A DNA stretch of 38,428 nucleotides, from NCBI GenBank assembly GCA_025361285.1, contig JANYAP010000102.1, positions 1 through 38,428 on the forward strand. Direction: 5' to 3'. A model generated the notes under the pieces. It made no database searches. It was not told where the DNA came from and was given only the letters and a program-made list of their open reading frames with translations. Made by a program: the position numbers and the translations under genes. Origin of the DNA: Bacteroidales bacterium (lineage in GTDB: Bacteria; Bacteroidota; Bacteroidia; Bacteroidales; JAAUTT01). Shown here in pieces: positions 29,382-38,234 of the stretch. Within the stretch, counting starts at the first letter, position 1; each line of letters starts with the position of its first letter.

Positions 29382-30728
29382 TCACACACCAGGAAACGAA
29401 ATGCCTTTAATTTTTCGAAAGAGTTCAACTGCGTATAAATCAGTCATTCCCGAAACGAAATCCAATACCGATTGAATCTTGCGATATGGCGTTTCGTCGG
29501 TTGGTTTAAACTGCAATGGTATAAGCTTTTGTAATTTGCTATGGTAGTGGCTCGAACCATCCATAACCGCTGGAACAAATTCTTCGAGCAATCCACTCAT
29601 TACCTTGTAGCCAGTAATTTCTTTTTCAATAACCGACCTGAAATTGTAAATTTTATCTTTCGAAACAACATCTATTTTATGTAATGTACTTTTAAAAGGC
29701 TCGGGCAAGCAATTGGCAAGGCTGTTGTTAAATTCGCCATTCATAATTTCGGGCAAATTACTTATAAACGCCGATGAACACTCATTAATAAGGCTATTGA
29801 TACACTTAGCTCGCAAAAACGAAATTTTGTCGTTCGAATCGAATATTTCATTTGCTCTATGCAATATTGATTGCGAGTCGTTTCCGAGAAGCCCAAGCAT
29901 GAGGTTCGATACTTCTGTGTCGGAAAAAATGCCAAGACGATGAGAGTCCTCGAGGTCAATAATATAGTAGCAAATATCGTCGGCTGCCTCAACCAAAAAT
30001 GTAAGAGGATGACGATAGCAAATAAACGGAGCACTTTGAAATTGTATAATACCAAGTTTAGCGGCTATTTTACGATAAGTGTCGGTTTCGGAAGCAAAAA
30101 AACCATATTTTTTGGTATATACCTTATCTTTTTTATGCCCTACCACCGATTCGCAAGGGTATTTTACAAGCGCCGCAAGTGTTGAATACGTAAGTGCAAA
30201 CTGGCTTTCCTGTTTGCCATGAAAAATATTGGTAAGAATGCGAAAAGCATTAGCATTACCTTCAAAGTTAGTAAGATCGCACCATTCGTGTTCCGACATC
30301 AAATTCTTGTACTGTTTTCCATCGCCATCGGTAAAATATCGCGAAATGGCTTTCTCCCCCGAATGCCCAAACGATGGATTACCCAGATCGTGAGCCAAAC
30401 ATGCCGACGATACTATATTGCCAATTTCTTCCAAAAACAAACACGTTTTGGTATCTTCTTGTTTCTTCAAATAATTAGCCAAAATAGTACCTAACGAACG
30501 CCCTACGCTAGCAACTTCCAAGCTGTGTGTTAATCGATTATGAACAAATACACTTCCCGGCAAGGGAAATACCTGTGTTTTATTTTGCAACCTTCGGAAT
30601 GGCGACGAAAATATTATGCGGTCGTAATCGCGCTGAAATTGAGAGCGCGCATAGTCGTAATTCGACAGGTTTGTATCATTTTCTTTGCCTAGTCGCTCAG
30701 CAGAAAGAAGTTTGTGCCAATTCATCAT
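29382..30728 (-). CDS. dgt: Deoxyguanosinetriphosphate triphosphohydrolase (dGTPase, HD superfamily)
   Basis: The protein has 448 residues. The enzyme splits dGTP (or other dNTPs) into nucleoside and triphosphate, tuning nucleotide pools and limiting phage or mutation pressure. Motifs include FSSPFRRLQNKTQVFPLPG (40-58), VHNRLTHSLEVASVGRS (62-78) with H68, and CLAHDLGNPSFGHSGEKA (110-127) with H113 and D114 as the HD pair. A later EAADDICYYIIDLEDSHRLG near 246-266 gives the second metal-binding Asp set. Length fits Bacteroidota dGTPases. It starts with ATGATG (30728 or 30725). A -7-like box CGAAGATA (30751-30758, complement; one mismatch to TAnnTTTG) lies 22 bases upstream. Substrate range is not deducible. 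Confidence 0.93.
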   Translation of the reverse strand: MMNWHKLLSAERLGKENDTNLSNYDYARSQFQRDYDRIIFSSPFRRLQNKTQVFPLPGSVFVHNRLTHSLEVASVGRSLGTILANYLKKQEDTKTCLFLEEIGNIVSSACLAHDLGNPSFGHSGEKAISRYFTDGDGKQYKNLMSEHEWCDLTNFEGNANAFRILTNIFHGKQESQFALTYSTLAALVKYPCESVVGHKKDKVYTKKYGFFASETDTYRKIAAKLGIIQFQSAPFICYRHPLTFLVEAADDICYYIIDLEDSHRLGIFSDTEVSNLMLGLLGNDSQSILHRANEIFDSNDKISFLRAKCINSLINECSSAFISNLPEIMNGEFNNSLANCLPEPFKSTLHKIDVVSKDKIYNFRSVIEKEITGYKVMSGLLEEFVPAVMDGSSHYHSKLQKLIPLQFKPTDETPYRKIQSVLDFVSGMTDLYAVELFRKIKGISFPGV

Positions 30729-33846: not shown

Positions 33847-34249
33847 TTATTCAAATTCAAAACCTACATTATTCTTAAGGAAAACTCTAAAACCTTTTGC
33901 AACTTCTATTGCTTCCTCTCGATCTTTATTTGATAAATTGAACTTTACATCGGGATACCGTATTTCAATACCAAAAGCATTTAGTTTCATAATGCGCTCA
34001 TAAAATGCTCGGTCAAGTGGTATCGCGTCATCAAGTGAGTCTAATAGATATCTTAAATCGTGGCTTCTTTTAAATGAAATTGAGTTTTTTTTCGAGTAAA
34101 CATTTAATATACTTTTCGCTGGCTTGTTGGCAATGAAATGCAAGTGTATCGGAATATTCGGGAATATGTAAATTGATGACAATAGCCGTGCCAAGATCAT
34201 GGTCGGCCTTTTCAATCCAATCCTTTAATCTTTCCTCGCTAGCGTTCAT
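33847..34249 (-). pseudogene. HEPN-domain gene with a frameshift in an A8 run
   Basis: From ATG 34249 the frame reads MNASEERLKDWIEKADHDLG, TAIVINLHIPEYSDTLAFHC, QQASEKYIKCLLEKK and stops soon after an A8 run (T8 at 34085-34092). With one A fewer the frame continues as NSISFKRSHDLRYLLDSLDD through AFYERIMKLNAFGIEIRYPD to VGFEFE and a stop at 33847. The whole is a typical HEPN protein (about 133 residues), a toxin or RNase-like partner of MNT nucleotidyltransferases. The start overlaps the MNT gene's stop by 11 bases, so translation was coupled. It may be a true pseudogene, a phase-variable gene or a product of slippage at the run. A base-call error in the homopolymer is also possible. Confidence 0.8.
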
Positions 34250-34553
34250 ACATTAATTGGGCCTCTTTTATGGCTGTATTTACAAATGAATAACATTTCA
34301 TTTCCCCCTTTTCAAATTCATCATTAGTATATACTACTATATCAACAGGTAATTTCGAACCTATCAGTAACCTTTGAATCTCAATACTTCTTTTATACTT
34401 TGGTTCTAAAGTTTCTTTAATAACCAATAAATCAATATCACTGTCTTCATCTGCTAGCCCTGTTGCGTAGGAACCAAATAGAAACTTTTTATTGGGATTA
34501 ATATTCGAAGCAATCAGAAATACTATATTTGAAATTGTGCTTTTATCAATCAT
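34239..34553 (-). CDS. MNT-type nucleotidyltransferase (toxin-antitoxin module partner)
   Basis: The protein has 104 residues. The minimal nucleotidyltransferase motif is complete: KKFLFGSYATGLADEDSDID (about 21-40), with GSYA followed at the right spacing by DSDIDLLV (metal-binding D38 and D40), and a third acidic residue in LPVDIVVY (about 73-80). MNT proteins of this type modify (AMPylate) and neutralise a HEPN partner encoded next to them. Here the HEPN gene follows with an 11-base overlap and is frameshifted. A near-consensus -7 box (complement of TAAAGGTA, 34576-34583) sits 22 bases before the start. The MNT gene itself appears intact. Confidence 0.87.
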   Translation of the reverse strand: MIDKSTISNIVFLIASNINPNKKFLFGSYATGLADEDSDIDLLVIKETLEPKYKRSIEIQRLLIGSKLPVDIVVYTNDEFEKGEMKCYSFVNTAIKEAQLMYER

Positions 34554-34631: not shown

Positions 34632-36023
34632 CTAAGTAATTAATTGCCTTATTCGCTCTATTTGACTTTGCTTGTTTACCTCACGCAATCTGCGAGCTGT
34701 GTTTGTAAAATACTGATGACTTGAAATAAACGACAACTGGAGCTTGTTCCAATCGTTTAATGATCCTATTTTATTTCGCACTTTTAGTTCCTCGAAAAGC
34801 TTATTCGACACTGGAATAAAGTCTATCCGCCCTAAATAATCGAGGTCGGCATCGCAAATTATCGATTCGAGCAAATTTTTAGGCTTTGGTGGCAACTTTG
34901 TACTCATTATTATTTCGCATATTTTGTCAATCTGTTCCTGACTATAATTGTACTTTGGCAGTATGTCGCGGGCAATAACAGTTCCGTGAAATTCGTGGTT
35001 GTCATAATCAACGGTATGCCCACAATCGTGAAATAGGGCGGCCGTTTTAAGAATTAATAGATCGTTGTCCGACAGCCCTTCAGCCCAGCCAATAAGCTCC
35101 ACCTCGGTAACCACATCAACAGTGTGTTTTAGGTTATGATAATGCAAATCGGTAGGTAGCTCCTGCTCAAGCTTATCGAATACGCCTTCCTGTATATCGT
35201 GGAACTGAATGAGAGCAAATTTAGTTTTGAAGTTGCTATTTGGTTTAATTCCTAATCCGTCTTCCGACAGTTCGGGCTTAATACCTGTAACCGAATAAAT
35301 ATCGAGAAATCCCTTGTATTTTACAGGCAGTTTGCCATAATACTCGCAGGTAAATATTTCTTTTATTAGCTCGTACGTCATCACCGAAATAAGCAGTTCG
35401 CCGTTTCGGCCCGACGACTCCATCCTACTGGTAATGTTTACGGTATCGCCTTTTATGTCGTAAGTAACTCGTTGCTTGCCACTTACCAACGCCGATACTG
35501 GACCGGTATGTACTGCCAAGCAAATTTCCCACAATGGTTTTGTGGATGCATTAAAAGCCTTTACTGCATGCAGCATTTGCATGGCGGCAAGTATAACCTC
35601 AACGGGATTGGTAATATTTTTATCGGGTATTCCTCCGGCGCACATGTACGAATCGCCAATAGTTTTAATTTTGGCAATCGGGTATTTATCAATTATTTCG
35701 TCGAACTTTATAAATAATTGGTCTAGCTCGTCCATAAGGGCTTCCGTGTCCATTTCGGGCGTAATATCCGAAAAGCCATGTAGTTCGGCATAAAGTACGG
35801 TAACCATATTAAACTTTAACGATTGTGCCCTATCGGAACTCAAAACCTCCTTAACGTCGCTATAGTGAGCGTATTTGCTTACAATTTGCTCATATTCTTC
35901 ATTTTTGCGCATCAACTCGTTATACTCCTCGCGTACAAGCCTAAGTTCGTGCGTTAATTCCTTATTTTGCTGAACTAGCCGTGCAAATCGTTTTACCAGT
36001 TGGTTGTCTTGAACTTTGTCCAT
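34632..36023 (-). CDS. Class III nucleotide cyclase fused to an HD/phosphodiesterase-like domain
   Basis: The protein has 463 residues with no membrane segment. An N-terminal coiled coil (about 8-50) precedes a class III cyclase homology domain (about 70-250). The first metal-ligand motif, usually F-x-D-I-x-G-F, reads LYAELHGFS with E80 at the aspartate position. The second reads IKTIGDSYMCAGG with K120 and D124. YDIKGDTVNITSRMES supplies D189, N196 and R200, the set expected for adenine specificity and transition-state binding. The C-terminal half is an HD domain: HYHNLKHTVDVVTEV (294-308), ALFHDCGHTVDYDNHEFHG (329-347) and a later DADLDYLG. YHN..H and HDCGH resemble cyclic-nucleotide phosphodiesterases. 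It might make and degrade a cyclic nucleotide; this is inferred. It diverges from uvrB. Confidence 0.88.
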   Translation of the reverse strand: MDKVQDNQLVKRFARLVQQNKELTHELRLVREEYNELMRKNEEYEQIVSKYAHYSDVKEVLSSDRAQSLKFNMVTVLYAELHGFSDITPEMDTEALMDELDQLFIKFDEIIDKYPIAKIKTIGDSYMCAGGIPDKNITNPVEVILAAMQMLHAVKAFNASTKPLWEICLAVHTGPVSALVSGKQRVTYDIKGDTVNITSRMESSGRNGELLISVMTYELIKEIFTCEYYGKLPVKYKGFLDIYSVTGIKPELSEDGLGIKPNSNFKTKFALIQFHDIQEGVFDKLEQELPTDLHYHNLKHTVDVVTEVELIGWAEGLSDNDLLILKTAALFHDCGHTVDYDNHEFHGTVIARDILPKYNYSQEQIDKICEIIMSTKLPPKPKNLLESIICDADLDYLGRIDFIPVSNKLFEELKVRNKIGSLNDWNKLQLSFISSHQYFTNTARRLREVNKQSQIERIRQLIT

Positions 36024-36212: not shown

Positions 36213-38234
36213 ATGAATTTTAAAATTGTTTCCGATTTCGAACCTAGCGGCGACCAGCCAAATGCTATCGAGCAATTAGTCGATGGTATTAACGATGGCC
36301 GAACTTACCACACATTGCTAGGCGTTACAGGATCGGGCAAAACATTTACCATAGCCAATGTAGTGGAACGTTTACAACGACCCGTATTGGTATTGAGCCA
36401 CAACAAAACGCTTGCAGCACAGTTGTATGGCGAGTTTAAACAGTTCTTCCCACAAAATGCAGTGGAATATTTTGTTTCGTATTACGATTATTATCAACCA
36501 GAGGCATACCTACCCAGCACTGGTACATACATTGAAAAAGATTTATCGATTAACGAAGAAATTGAAAAACTTCGGTTAAGCACTACCTCCGCTTTACTTT
36601 CTGGGCGGCGCGATGTTATTGTTGTTTCGTCGGTTTCGTGTCTGTACGGCATAGGCAACCCTGCCGATTTCGAGAGTAACACCATAAGTATTAAGCAAGG
36701 TCAAGAATATGGCCGCAACCCATTTCTGCGTAAGCTTGTCGATAGCCTGTATTTTCGCAGCGAGGTGGAATTTAAACGCGGCAGCTTTCGCGTAAAAGGC
36801 GATACTGTTGATATATACTTGGCTTATAGCGATGTTGCCTACCGCGTAATTTTTTATGGCGACGAAATTGAGGAAATATATTCGTTCGATCCTATTTCGG
36901 GACACAAAATTGAAGTTTTAACCGAAGCACTAATTTATCCGGCCAATATATTTGTTACCACTCGCGAGAGGATGCAGGGCGCTATTCGGGAAATTCAGGA
37001 CGACTTGTTTAAGCAAGTGGAGTTTTTTAAGAAAATAAACAAACCGCTCGAAGCCAAGAGGTTGGAAGATCGTGTAACATACGATTTAGAAATGATAAAA
37101 GAGCTTGGCTATTGCTCTGGCATCGAAAATTATTCGCGATATTTCGACGGTCGCAAAGCTGGAACTCGCCCCTTTTGCTTAATGGACTATTTCCCCGACG
37201 ATTTTCTGATGGTTATCGACGAAAGCCACGTTACAATATCGCAAATACGAGCCATGTATGGAGGCGATCATTCGCGAAAGCAAAACCTTGTGGAATACGG
37301 TTTTAGGCTGCCCTCGGCTATCGACAACCGTCCTCTAAAATTCGAAGAGTTCGAAACGCTTGTAGGTCAAACGGTTTTTGTTAGTGCAACCCCAGCCGAT
37401 TACGAACTCGAAAAATCAGAAGGTATTATTGTAGAGCAACTTATTCGCCCAACGGGCTTACTCGACCCAATGATTACCGTTCGTCCTAGCTTAAACCAAA
37501 TCGACGATTTACTGGAAGAAATATCACTTTGCGTGAAAAAAAACGAGCGAGCGCTGGTTACCACTCTTACCAAACGCATGGCCGAGGAACTTACCACATA
37601 CCTAACGCGTTATGGCGTTAAATGCCGCTACATACATTCCGACGTGGAAACGTTAGATCGTGTAGAAATAATGGAAGGCTTGCGTGCTGGCAAGTTCGAC
37701 GTATTGGTGGGTGTTAACCTTCTCCGCGAAGGACTCGATTTACCCGAGGTATCGCTTGTGGCAATACTCGATGCCGACAAGGAAGGCTTCCTTCGTTCCG
37801 AGCGGTCGCTAACGCAAACATCGGGGCGTGCAGCCCGAAATATCAACGGCAAAGTAATAATGTATGCCGACAAAATTACAAATAGCATGCAACGCACCAT
37901 CGACGAAACCCTTCGCCGACGCGTTATACAGCTCGATTATAATCAGAAAAACAACATTACACCCAAACAAATACAAAAGGCACTTACATCAATTATGGGC
38001 AACGCCCCCGATAAATCGCCAAACAATAAAACGAAATATTACGCCGAAACAGGGCAAATTGATGTTGCAGCAGACCCCGTAGTACAATATATGAGCAAAG
38101 AAGCCTTGGGAAAAGCAATCGATAAAACCAAAAAAGCTATGCAAAAAGCCGCCAAAGAACTCGATTTTATTGAAGCTGCCCGCCTACGCGACGAAATGTT
38201 TGCCTTGCAGGAACTGCATAGTCGTAAGTCGTAA
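36213..38234 (+). CDS. uvrB: UvrABC system protein B
   Basis: The protein has 673 residues. It is the damage-verifying helicase-like subunit of nucleotide excision repair, loaded by UvrA and binding UvrC for incision. Motifs in order are SDFEPSGDQPNAIEQLVDGI (7-26), Walker A GVTGSGKTF (38-46), the beta-hairpin YYDYYQPEAYLPSTGTYIEK (about 91-110), Walker B VIDESHVT (near 336-343), LIRPTGLLDP, and helicase motifs DVLVGVNLLREGLDLPEVSL (about 493-512) and QTSGRAARN. The C-terminal UVR domain is AMQKAAKELDFIEAARLRDE (about 640-660), the UvrC contact. The final residues (LHSRKS) are encoded inside a short dispersed repeat. Length is normal for the family. Confidence 0.98.
   Translation: MNFKIVSDFEPSGDQPNAIEQLVDGINDGRTYHTLLGVTGSGKTFTIANVVERLQRPVLVLSHNKTLAAQLYGEFKQFFPQNAVEYFVSYYDYYQPEAYLPSTGTYIEKDLSINEEIEKLRLSTTSALLSGRRDVIVVSSVSCLYGIGNPADFESNTISIKQGQEYGRNPFLRKLVDSLYFRSEVEFKRGSFRVKGDTVDIYLAYSDVAYRVIFYGDEIEEIYSFDPISGHKIEVLTEALIYPANIFVTTRERMQGAIREIQDDLFKQVEFFKKINKPLEAKRLEDRVTYDLEMIKELGYCSGIENYSRYFDGRKAGTRPFCLMDYFPDDFLMVIDESHVTISQIRAMYGGDHSRKQNLVEYGFRLPSAIDNRPLKFEEFETLVGQTVFVSATPADYELEKSEGIIVEQLIRPTGLLDPMITVRPSLNQIDDLLEEISLCVKKNERALVTTLTKRMAEELTTYLTRYGVKCRYIHSDVETLDRVEIMEGLRAGKFDVLVGVNLLREGLDLPEVSLVAILDADKEGFLRSERSLTQTSGRAARNINGKVIMYADKITNSMQRTIDETLRRRVIQLDYNQKNNITPKQIQKALTSIMGNAPDKSPNNKTKYYAETGQIDVAADPVVQYMSKEALGKAIDKTKKAMQKAAKELDFIEAARLRDEMFALQELHSRKS

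Follow-up and report, generated by a model that had tools for sequence, protein, structure and literature searches.

Some GGDEF-EAL proteins, such as Caulobacter PdeA, carry a degenerate GGDEF domain that senses GTP. Mammalian adenylyl cyclases combine a C1 and a C2 half, one of which is without the metal-binding aspartates yet keeps the asparagine and the arginine. GGDEF domains and class III cyclase domains are related in structure (PMC1183210). Fusions of an adenylyl cyclase (AC) with a phosphodiesterase (PDE) are described as CAPE (COMBINED AC with PDE) in Marchantia and other streptophytes, where both halves are active (PMC5159850), and oomycetes have CAPE-like proteins (PMC8115329). In the literature searched, with subscription papers mostly outside its scope, no report of a bacterial family of cyclase-HD fusions was found, and little was found on cAMP-type signalling in Bacteroidota.

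The window analyzed here is the whole stretch of 38,428 nucleotides from a Bacteroidales bacterium (GCA_025361285.1, JANYAP010000102.1). Positions 34632-36023 of its minus strand form one open reading frame with an ATG start, which encodes 463 amino acids in the order coiled coil, class III cyclase homology domain (CHD), and HD domain. The preliminary description had placed a cyclase and an HD domain in a single protein, which is borne out by matches of PF00211 to residues 70-245 (E 1.4e-37) and of PF01966 to residues 299-393 (E 1.3e-07), so that both domains lie far above chance. The AlphaFold model of the whole protein, built with 48 sequences and reaching a mean pLDDT of 84.9, shows a long N-terminal helix (residues 3-52), then a cyclase domain of the alpha/beta type and a C-terminal domain made up entirely of helices. 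The protein belongs to a clade of soluble proteins, here called S.

34632..36023, minus strand: whole gene, coiled coil, class III cyclase, and PDE-like HD domain, member of clade S (ORF, Pfam, FastTree clade)
35868..36017, minus strand: N-terminal long helix or coiled coil, residues 3-52 (AlphaFold model)

We read the S proteins as soluble, probably dimeric cyclic-nucleotide phosphodiesterases, in which a former cyclase domain would gate the HD domain and the messenger would come from a separate cyclase. This reading, which draws on sequence comparison, is given an even chance of being right.

A search for other proteins with this domain order, as the preliminary description had suggested, was productive. 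Among 295 genomes of the order, 178 contained a match to the window protein, many to the cyclase half only. When 395 genomes were sampled across the phylum, 158 had a match at E 1e-20, single-domain for the most part. The order, phylum, and genus searches together with a contig scan (70 loci) yielded an alignment of 205 distinct rows spanning both domains, the query included. Open reading frames that did not span query residues 85 to 360 or that scored 150 bits or less were dropped before counting, as were 16 duplicates. The family was sampled mainly in Bacteroidales. FastTree separated clade S (n = 125), soluble and without an N-terminal sensor in any member, from clade R (n = 80), where 71 of 80 proteins carry an N-terminal extension of at least 80 residues, with SH 99 on both sides. 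The columns of the first metal position (Me1), H300, H332, and D333 were excluded from the trees. Two proteins were counted in neither clade. One is a receptor truncated at the end of its contig (L264, G018), the other an S-like protein (L250, 344-1800, G033) that appears as two overlapping open reading frames, a cyclase of 301 and an HD protein of 257 amino acids, and may be a real split or a frameshift.

An HD gene was also found just after a cyclase gene, with gaps of 37 bp (L040), 572 bp (L126), and 553 bp (L129). The same kind of HD domain occurs fused to a YitT-family membrane domain and DUF2179 (L041, 601-2103; L044, 1474-2970), and Pfam matches of HD relatives include YitT and TPR fusions. 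One chain of 1865 amino acids combines kinase, AAA, GAF, cyclase, and HD domains (L252, 583-6177, G445).

The cyclase domain of the window protein scored 129.5 bits with PF00211 against a curated cut-off of 21.9, and its model matched the fold of solved cyclases with Z up to 23.3. All of the residues named in the preliminary description (E80, K120, D124, D189, N196, R200, YHN at 295, and HDC at 332) were recovered when read by script. The features of this domain are located as follows.

35289..35816, minus strand: class III cyclase homology domain, residues 70-245 (PF00211, E 1.4e-37; model against solved cyclases, Z 20-23)
35784..35786, minus strand: E80, first metal position, Me1 (script read, family alignment, trees)
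35664..35666, minus strand: K120, adenine-specifying lysine position (script read, alignment)
35652..35654, minus strand: D124, second metal position, Me2, D in 123/125 S (script read, alignment)
35457..35459, minus strand: D189, adenine-specifying aspartate position (script read, alignment)
35451..35453, minus strand: K191, lysine at the tryptophan of the cyclases' YD-I-W-G motif, K in 120/125 S, W in 78/80 R
35424..35438, minus strand: N196 and R200, transition-state pair, R in 125/125 S (script read, alignment)

The canonical adenine pair, which we take to be K120 and D189, and the canonical transition-state pair, presumably N196 and R200, are present in the window protein. The two metal-binding aspartates are incomplete, with E80 at the first and D124 at the second position. 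The family alignment assigns E80 to the column of the first metal aspartate, which is D in 71 of 125 S and 73 of 80 R proteins. As controls, all 20 additional cyclases fetched from genomes with an S have D in this column, as do 34 of 35 further CHDs from Bacteroidota, the exception being the cyclase frame of the split G033 protein. That a glutamate is odd at the expected first metal aspartate is thus confirmed by the alignment. The preliminary description had named homologues with aspartate at this position and separately acting domains as an argument against its own reading; the aspartate part of this holds in the 71 close soluble relatives, and because of them E80 is seen as one of many substitutions at a drifting position and not as a new metal site. 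A sequencing error was rejected, as a second genome of the genus carries the same glutamate in a protein of 85% identity. A novel glutamate-based metal site as a general reading was also rejected, since the column of clade S holds E (18), N (17), Y (10), S (5), Q (2), and H (2) besides aspartate. The aromatic residue of the YD-I-W/F-G motif is absent, with K191 in its place. At this position, R proteins have W in 78 of 80 cases, all 20 additional cyclases from S genomes have W or F, and 34 of 35 other CHDs have W or Y. E80 probably abolishes or weakens cyclisation in the window protein, and E80 and K191 together would be expected to abolish or cripple it. Because E80 retains a carboxylate, weak metal binding or weak Mn-dependent activity is possible.

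The two clades are conserved in opposite halves. The HD triad (H300, H332, and D333) is complete in 125 of 125 S proteins versus 52 of 80 R proteins, while the metal aspartate changed at least 20 times within S in the FastTree tree (at least 19 in IQ-TREE) and 4 times within R. The sequence flanking the substituted position in S is clean. Mean column entropy in S was 0.96 for the HD domain and 1.44 for the CHD, whereas the R proteins with a lost HD triad showed 2.04 and 0.65, respectively. Among the 54 S proteins without the metal aspartate, D124 and R200 occurred in all 54, N196 in 52, K120 in 42, and D189 in 35. The nucleotide pocket therefore appears to have been kept while one catalytic residue was lost, as D124, R200, and N196 remain almost complete in these proteins. 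A general decay of the S cyclase half was considered and is not supported by the persistence of D124, N196, and R200. The pattern suggests that S keeps the destroying half and that the making half may have turned into a control part.

The loss hits the metal half of the site and leaves R200 and N196 nearly untouched, which would also suit a heterodimer. The S cyclase domain would then serve as a C2-like half (N196/R200), the receptor would give both metal aspartates, and the PDE would be carried to the site of synthesis. Of 35 testable contigs, 12 have S and R in one locus, which agrees with this arrangement. However, the second metal aspartate is retained in 54 of 54 metal-lost S proteins, the adenine residues expected from a C2-like half vary (35 of the 54 have D at position 189), and the receptors are already complete alone, so that we regard such a heterodimer as very unlikely.

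For the preferred reading of S as a gated phosphodiesterase, the HD domain is the part that would carry the activity. Its features are given below.

34635..35222, minus strand: HD domain, residues 268-463 (PF01966; model against PDE10A/PDE7A, Z 16-17, and against the YpgQ type, Z 16-17)
35124..35141, minus strand: YHNxxH, residues 295-300, H300 in 125/125 S (script read, alignment)
35016..35030, minus strand: HDCGH, residues 332-336, H332 and D333 in 125/125 S, H336 in 106/125 (alignment)
34992..34997, minus strand: H343-E344, 124/125 and 125/125 S (alignment)
34842..34856, minus strand: CDADL, residues 390-394, with D393 as candidate last metal aspartate, D393 in 124/125 S (one gap) and 46/80 R
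34725..34739, minus strand: QLSFI, residues 429-433, PDE-like QxxF, Q429 in 123/125 S, F432 in 122/125 S

The PF01966 match with its H...HD...D residues places the domain in the HD phosphohydrolase superfamily. The motifs YHNxxH, HDxxH, DL, and QxxF, which we take to be those of class I PDEs, are all present in the window protein, and the DL of CDADL and the QxxF at 429-432 are PDE-like features beyond the YHNxxH and HDCGH already reported. The Q and F of the QxxF motif presumably hold the purine in PDEs. In the R proteins with a lost HD triad, Q is found in 14 of 28 and F in 3 of 28; among 14 HD proteins that are not joined to a cyclase, 13 have Q and all 14 have F. We infer that the HD substrate would be cAMP or another 3',5'-cyclic purine nucleotide.

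PDEase_I (PF00233) remained below its cut-off of 24.8 in the window protein, with 15 bits for the whole protein and 18.4 bits for the HD domain alone, and it matched 25 of 25 HD members at E 0.1 or better. A sequence-profile search of the PDB with the HD domain returned yedJ first, an HD hydrolase also leading, and PDE9A next at E 0.15. The HD-only model (mean pLDDT 88.7) covered about 190 of 196 residues of the domain over PDE10A and PDE7A, with an rmsd of 2.6-2.8 and Z 16-17. YpgQ-type hydrolases aligned over 162-174 residues at the same Z of 16-17, level with the PDEs, and YpgQ came first in the Foldseek E-value order; the generic HD nucleotidases that matched the fold at this level were YpgQ and 2pq7. 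With yedJ as the top profile match and YpgQ and other HD hydrolases level in the fold search and first by Foldseek, the domain could be a nucleotidase of the YpgQ/YedJ kind that acts on dNTPs or other nucleotides, with the cyclase half as an unrelated regulatory sensor of ATP or GTP. The joint conservation of YHNxxH, HDxxH, DL, and QxxF and the occurrence of the HD domain fused to or adjoining cyclases argue against a nucleotidase, which we consider unlikely.

The window genome contains exactly two PF00211 proteins, the S protein and an R receptor. The latter, of 934 amino acids, has a Y_Y_Y sensor and a cyclase domain whose metal sites are canonical; its HD domain is broken, with no Pfam HD match left. 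The genome table comprised 104 genomes, 103 from the order search and one (G003) from the genus search; G016, with a stop between the domains, is absent from it. One S and one R occurred together in 38 genomes, S only in 39 (two with two copies), and R only in 27. In the 38 genomes with both, the S protein has the metal aspartate in 16 and an intact HD domain in all 38, while the R protein has the aspartate in 37 and an intact HD domain in 24. Each of the 22 metal-lost S proteins alongside an R is accompanied by an R with aspartate, and each of the 14 HD-lost R proteins in these genomes by an S with an intact HD domain. Single S proteins without an R have the aspartate in 27 of 37 cases, and R-only genomes have an intact HD domain in 25 of 27 and both sites intact in 20 of 27. 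Irrespective of the metal residue, 37 of the 39 S-only genomes encode a further PF00211 protein (in G020 and G040, both S copies are among the PF00211 matches, plus a third), and the additional cyclases were mostly response-regulator-linked among the 20 fetched. In all 32 genomes whose single S is substituted at the metal position, a separate canonical cyclase is present; for the 10 of these that lack a full-length R, the second cyclase has the aspartate in every case.

Genome-level Fisher tests on the pairing of S and R gave p 0.010 and 0.008. Tree-aware independent pairs gave no association (median p 1), and the only pairs that differed for R pointed the opposite way, so that shared ancestry apart, the data do not demonstrate mutual compensation. 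In the window's genus, the HD domain of R is broken in three species whose S carries E or N and intact in the two whose S carries D, a pattern that may reflect few events. A cAMP-CRP output was sought in the window genome, and its four CRP/FNR-like proteins (L260-L263) showed no canonical cAMP pocket by eye, judged by the motif that we take to mark this pocket.

The preliminary description had raised the possibility that one protein makes and destroys a messenger. In such a true bifunctional enzyme, the cyclase half would still make cAMP despite E80, possibly with Mn as the metal, and the HD half would destroy it, giving turnover or a pulse as in CAPE. The aspartate in 71 of 125 S proteins, the almost invariant N196, R200, and D124, the two intact sites in 20 of 27 R-only genomes, and the precedent of CAPE, which has both activities (PMC5159850), are in line with it. 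It is made less likely here by the lysine in place of tryptophan at K191 in 120 of 125 S proteins, by the repeated and independent loss of the metal residue, and by the second canonical cyclase that is almost always present, including the 32 genomes above. We therefore consider a bifunctional enzyme improbable.

PorZ (NF052228), a type IX secretion protein, follows S in 24 of 43 loci with enough flank among 55 S loci, and RecO precedes S in 26 of 51. In 12 S loci (L071, L124, and others), porZ and an rdgB-type gene are flanked by S and R, which ties the S-R pair to a type IX secretion gene neighbourhood. The divergent neighbour of the gene in the window is outside the system.

36213..38234, plus strand: uvrB, with UvrB near S in 12/55 loci

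On the other side, at 33847-34553 of the minus strand, a HEPN protein (PF05168) adjoins a small MNT-type nucleotidyltransferase (PF01909; the MntA model stays below its cut-off), and the two look like a toxin-antitoxin pair. Another protein of the HD superfamily, an ordinary dGTP triphosphohydrolase, is encoded at 29382-30728 of the minus strand.

If S is a gated phosphodiesterase, as we prefer, a receptor or response-regulator cyclase would make the messenger, and in the window genome this would be the sensor-linked R with canonical residues and a broken HD domain. The HD domain of S would be the working enzyme that hydrolyses this messenger. The S cyclase domain would have lost cyclisation largely or wholly and retained its pocket, and by dimerising and reading a nucleotide it would gate the HD domain. 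Control of the HD domain by nucleotide binding to the cyclase domain reverses the direction proposed earlier, in which the HD domain senses the cyclase product; a cyclase-like domain that reads a nucleotide or a partner and controls the HD domain seems the likelier arrangement. Regarding its origin, an ancestral bifunctional enzyme may have been duplicated into a receptor cyclase with a decaying PDE and a soluble PDE whose non-catalytic cyclase half reads a nucleotide or docks to the receptor and sets the lifetime of the messenger, a history that we put forward tentatively and with some doubt. If true, a two-protein signalling circuit would have been born from the reciprocal wear of one two-domain enzyme. 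The family, with 104 genomes tabulated, offers a candidate PDE and its cyclase as a pair in Bacteroidota. It also forms a natural experiment, with opposite halves worn in sister clades and intermediates within one genus. Since the same two-domain protein wears in opposite ways, with intermediates, the idea of a dead cyclase domain as a nucleotide-gated switch is directly testable.

Among the described systems, CAPE resembles the window protein in joining a class III cyclase and a class I-type PDE-like domain in one protein (PMC5159850, PMC8115329). While the PDE is N-terminal and the AC C-terminal in CAPE, with transmembrane helices between them, the window protein is soluble and bacterial and has its cyclase ahead of the HD domain, so that it falls outside CAPE. 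It further differs by its substituted cyclase residues and by an HD domain of 196 residues with a weak PDEase_I match. Class I PDEs such as PDE10A and PDE7A overlay on the HD model over about 190 residues, level with YpgQ-type hydrolases, and share YHNxxH, HDxxH, DL, and QxxF, but the window HD domain is shorter (196 amino acids) and its PF00233 score is below the cut-off. HD hydrolases of the YpgQ/YedJ type are similar in size and match the fold at the same level, and differ in that the window HD domain is fused to a cyclase domain. Compared with the mammalian C1/C2 halves, the window protein loses the first aspartate only and keeps the second. GGDEF-EAL proteins, with a worn cyclase-type domain ahead of an active phosphodiesterase, would by analogy be closest to S in working principle; they belong to other enzyme families and use another messenger, and gating by GTP in S is a proposal. 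AC-PDE fusions are already known from plants as CAPE; a pair of bacterial paralogues worn in reciprocal halves would seem to be a new form of such fusions.
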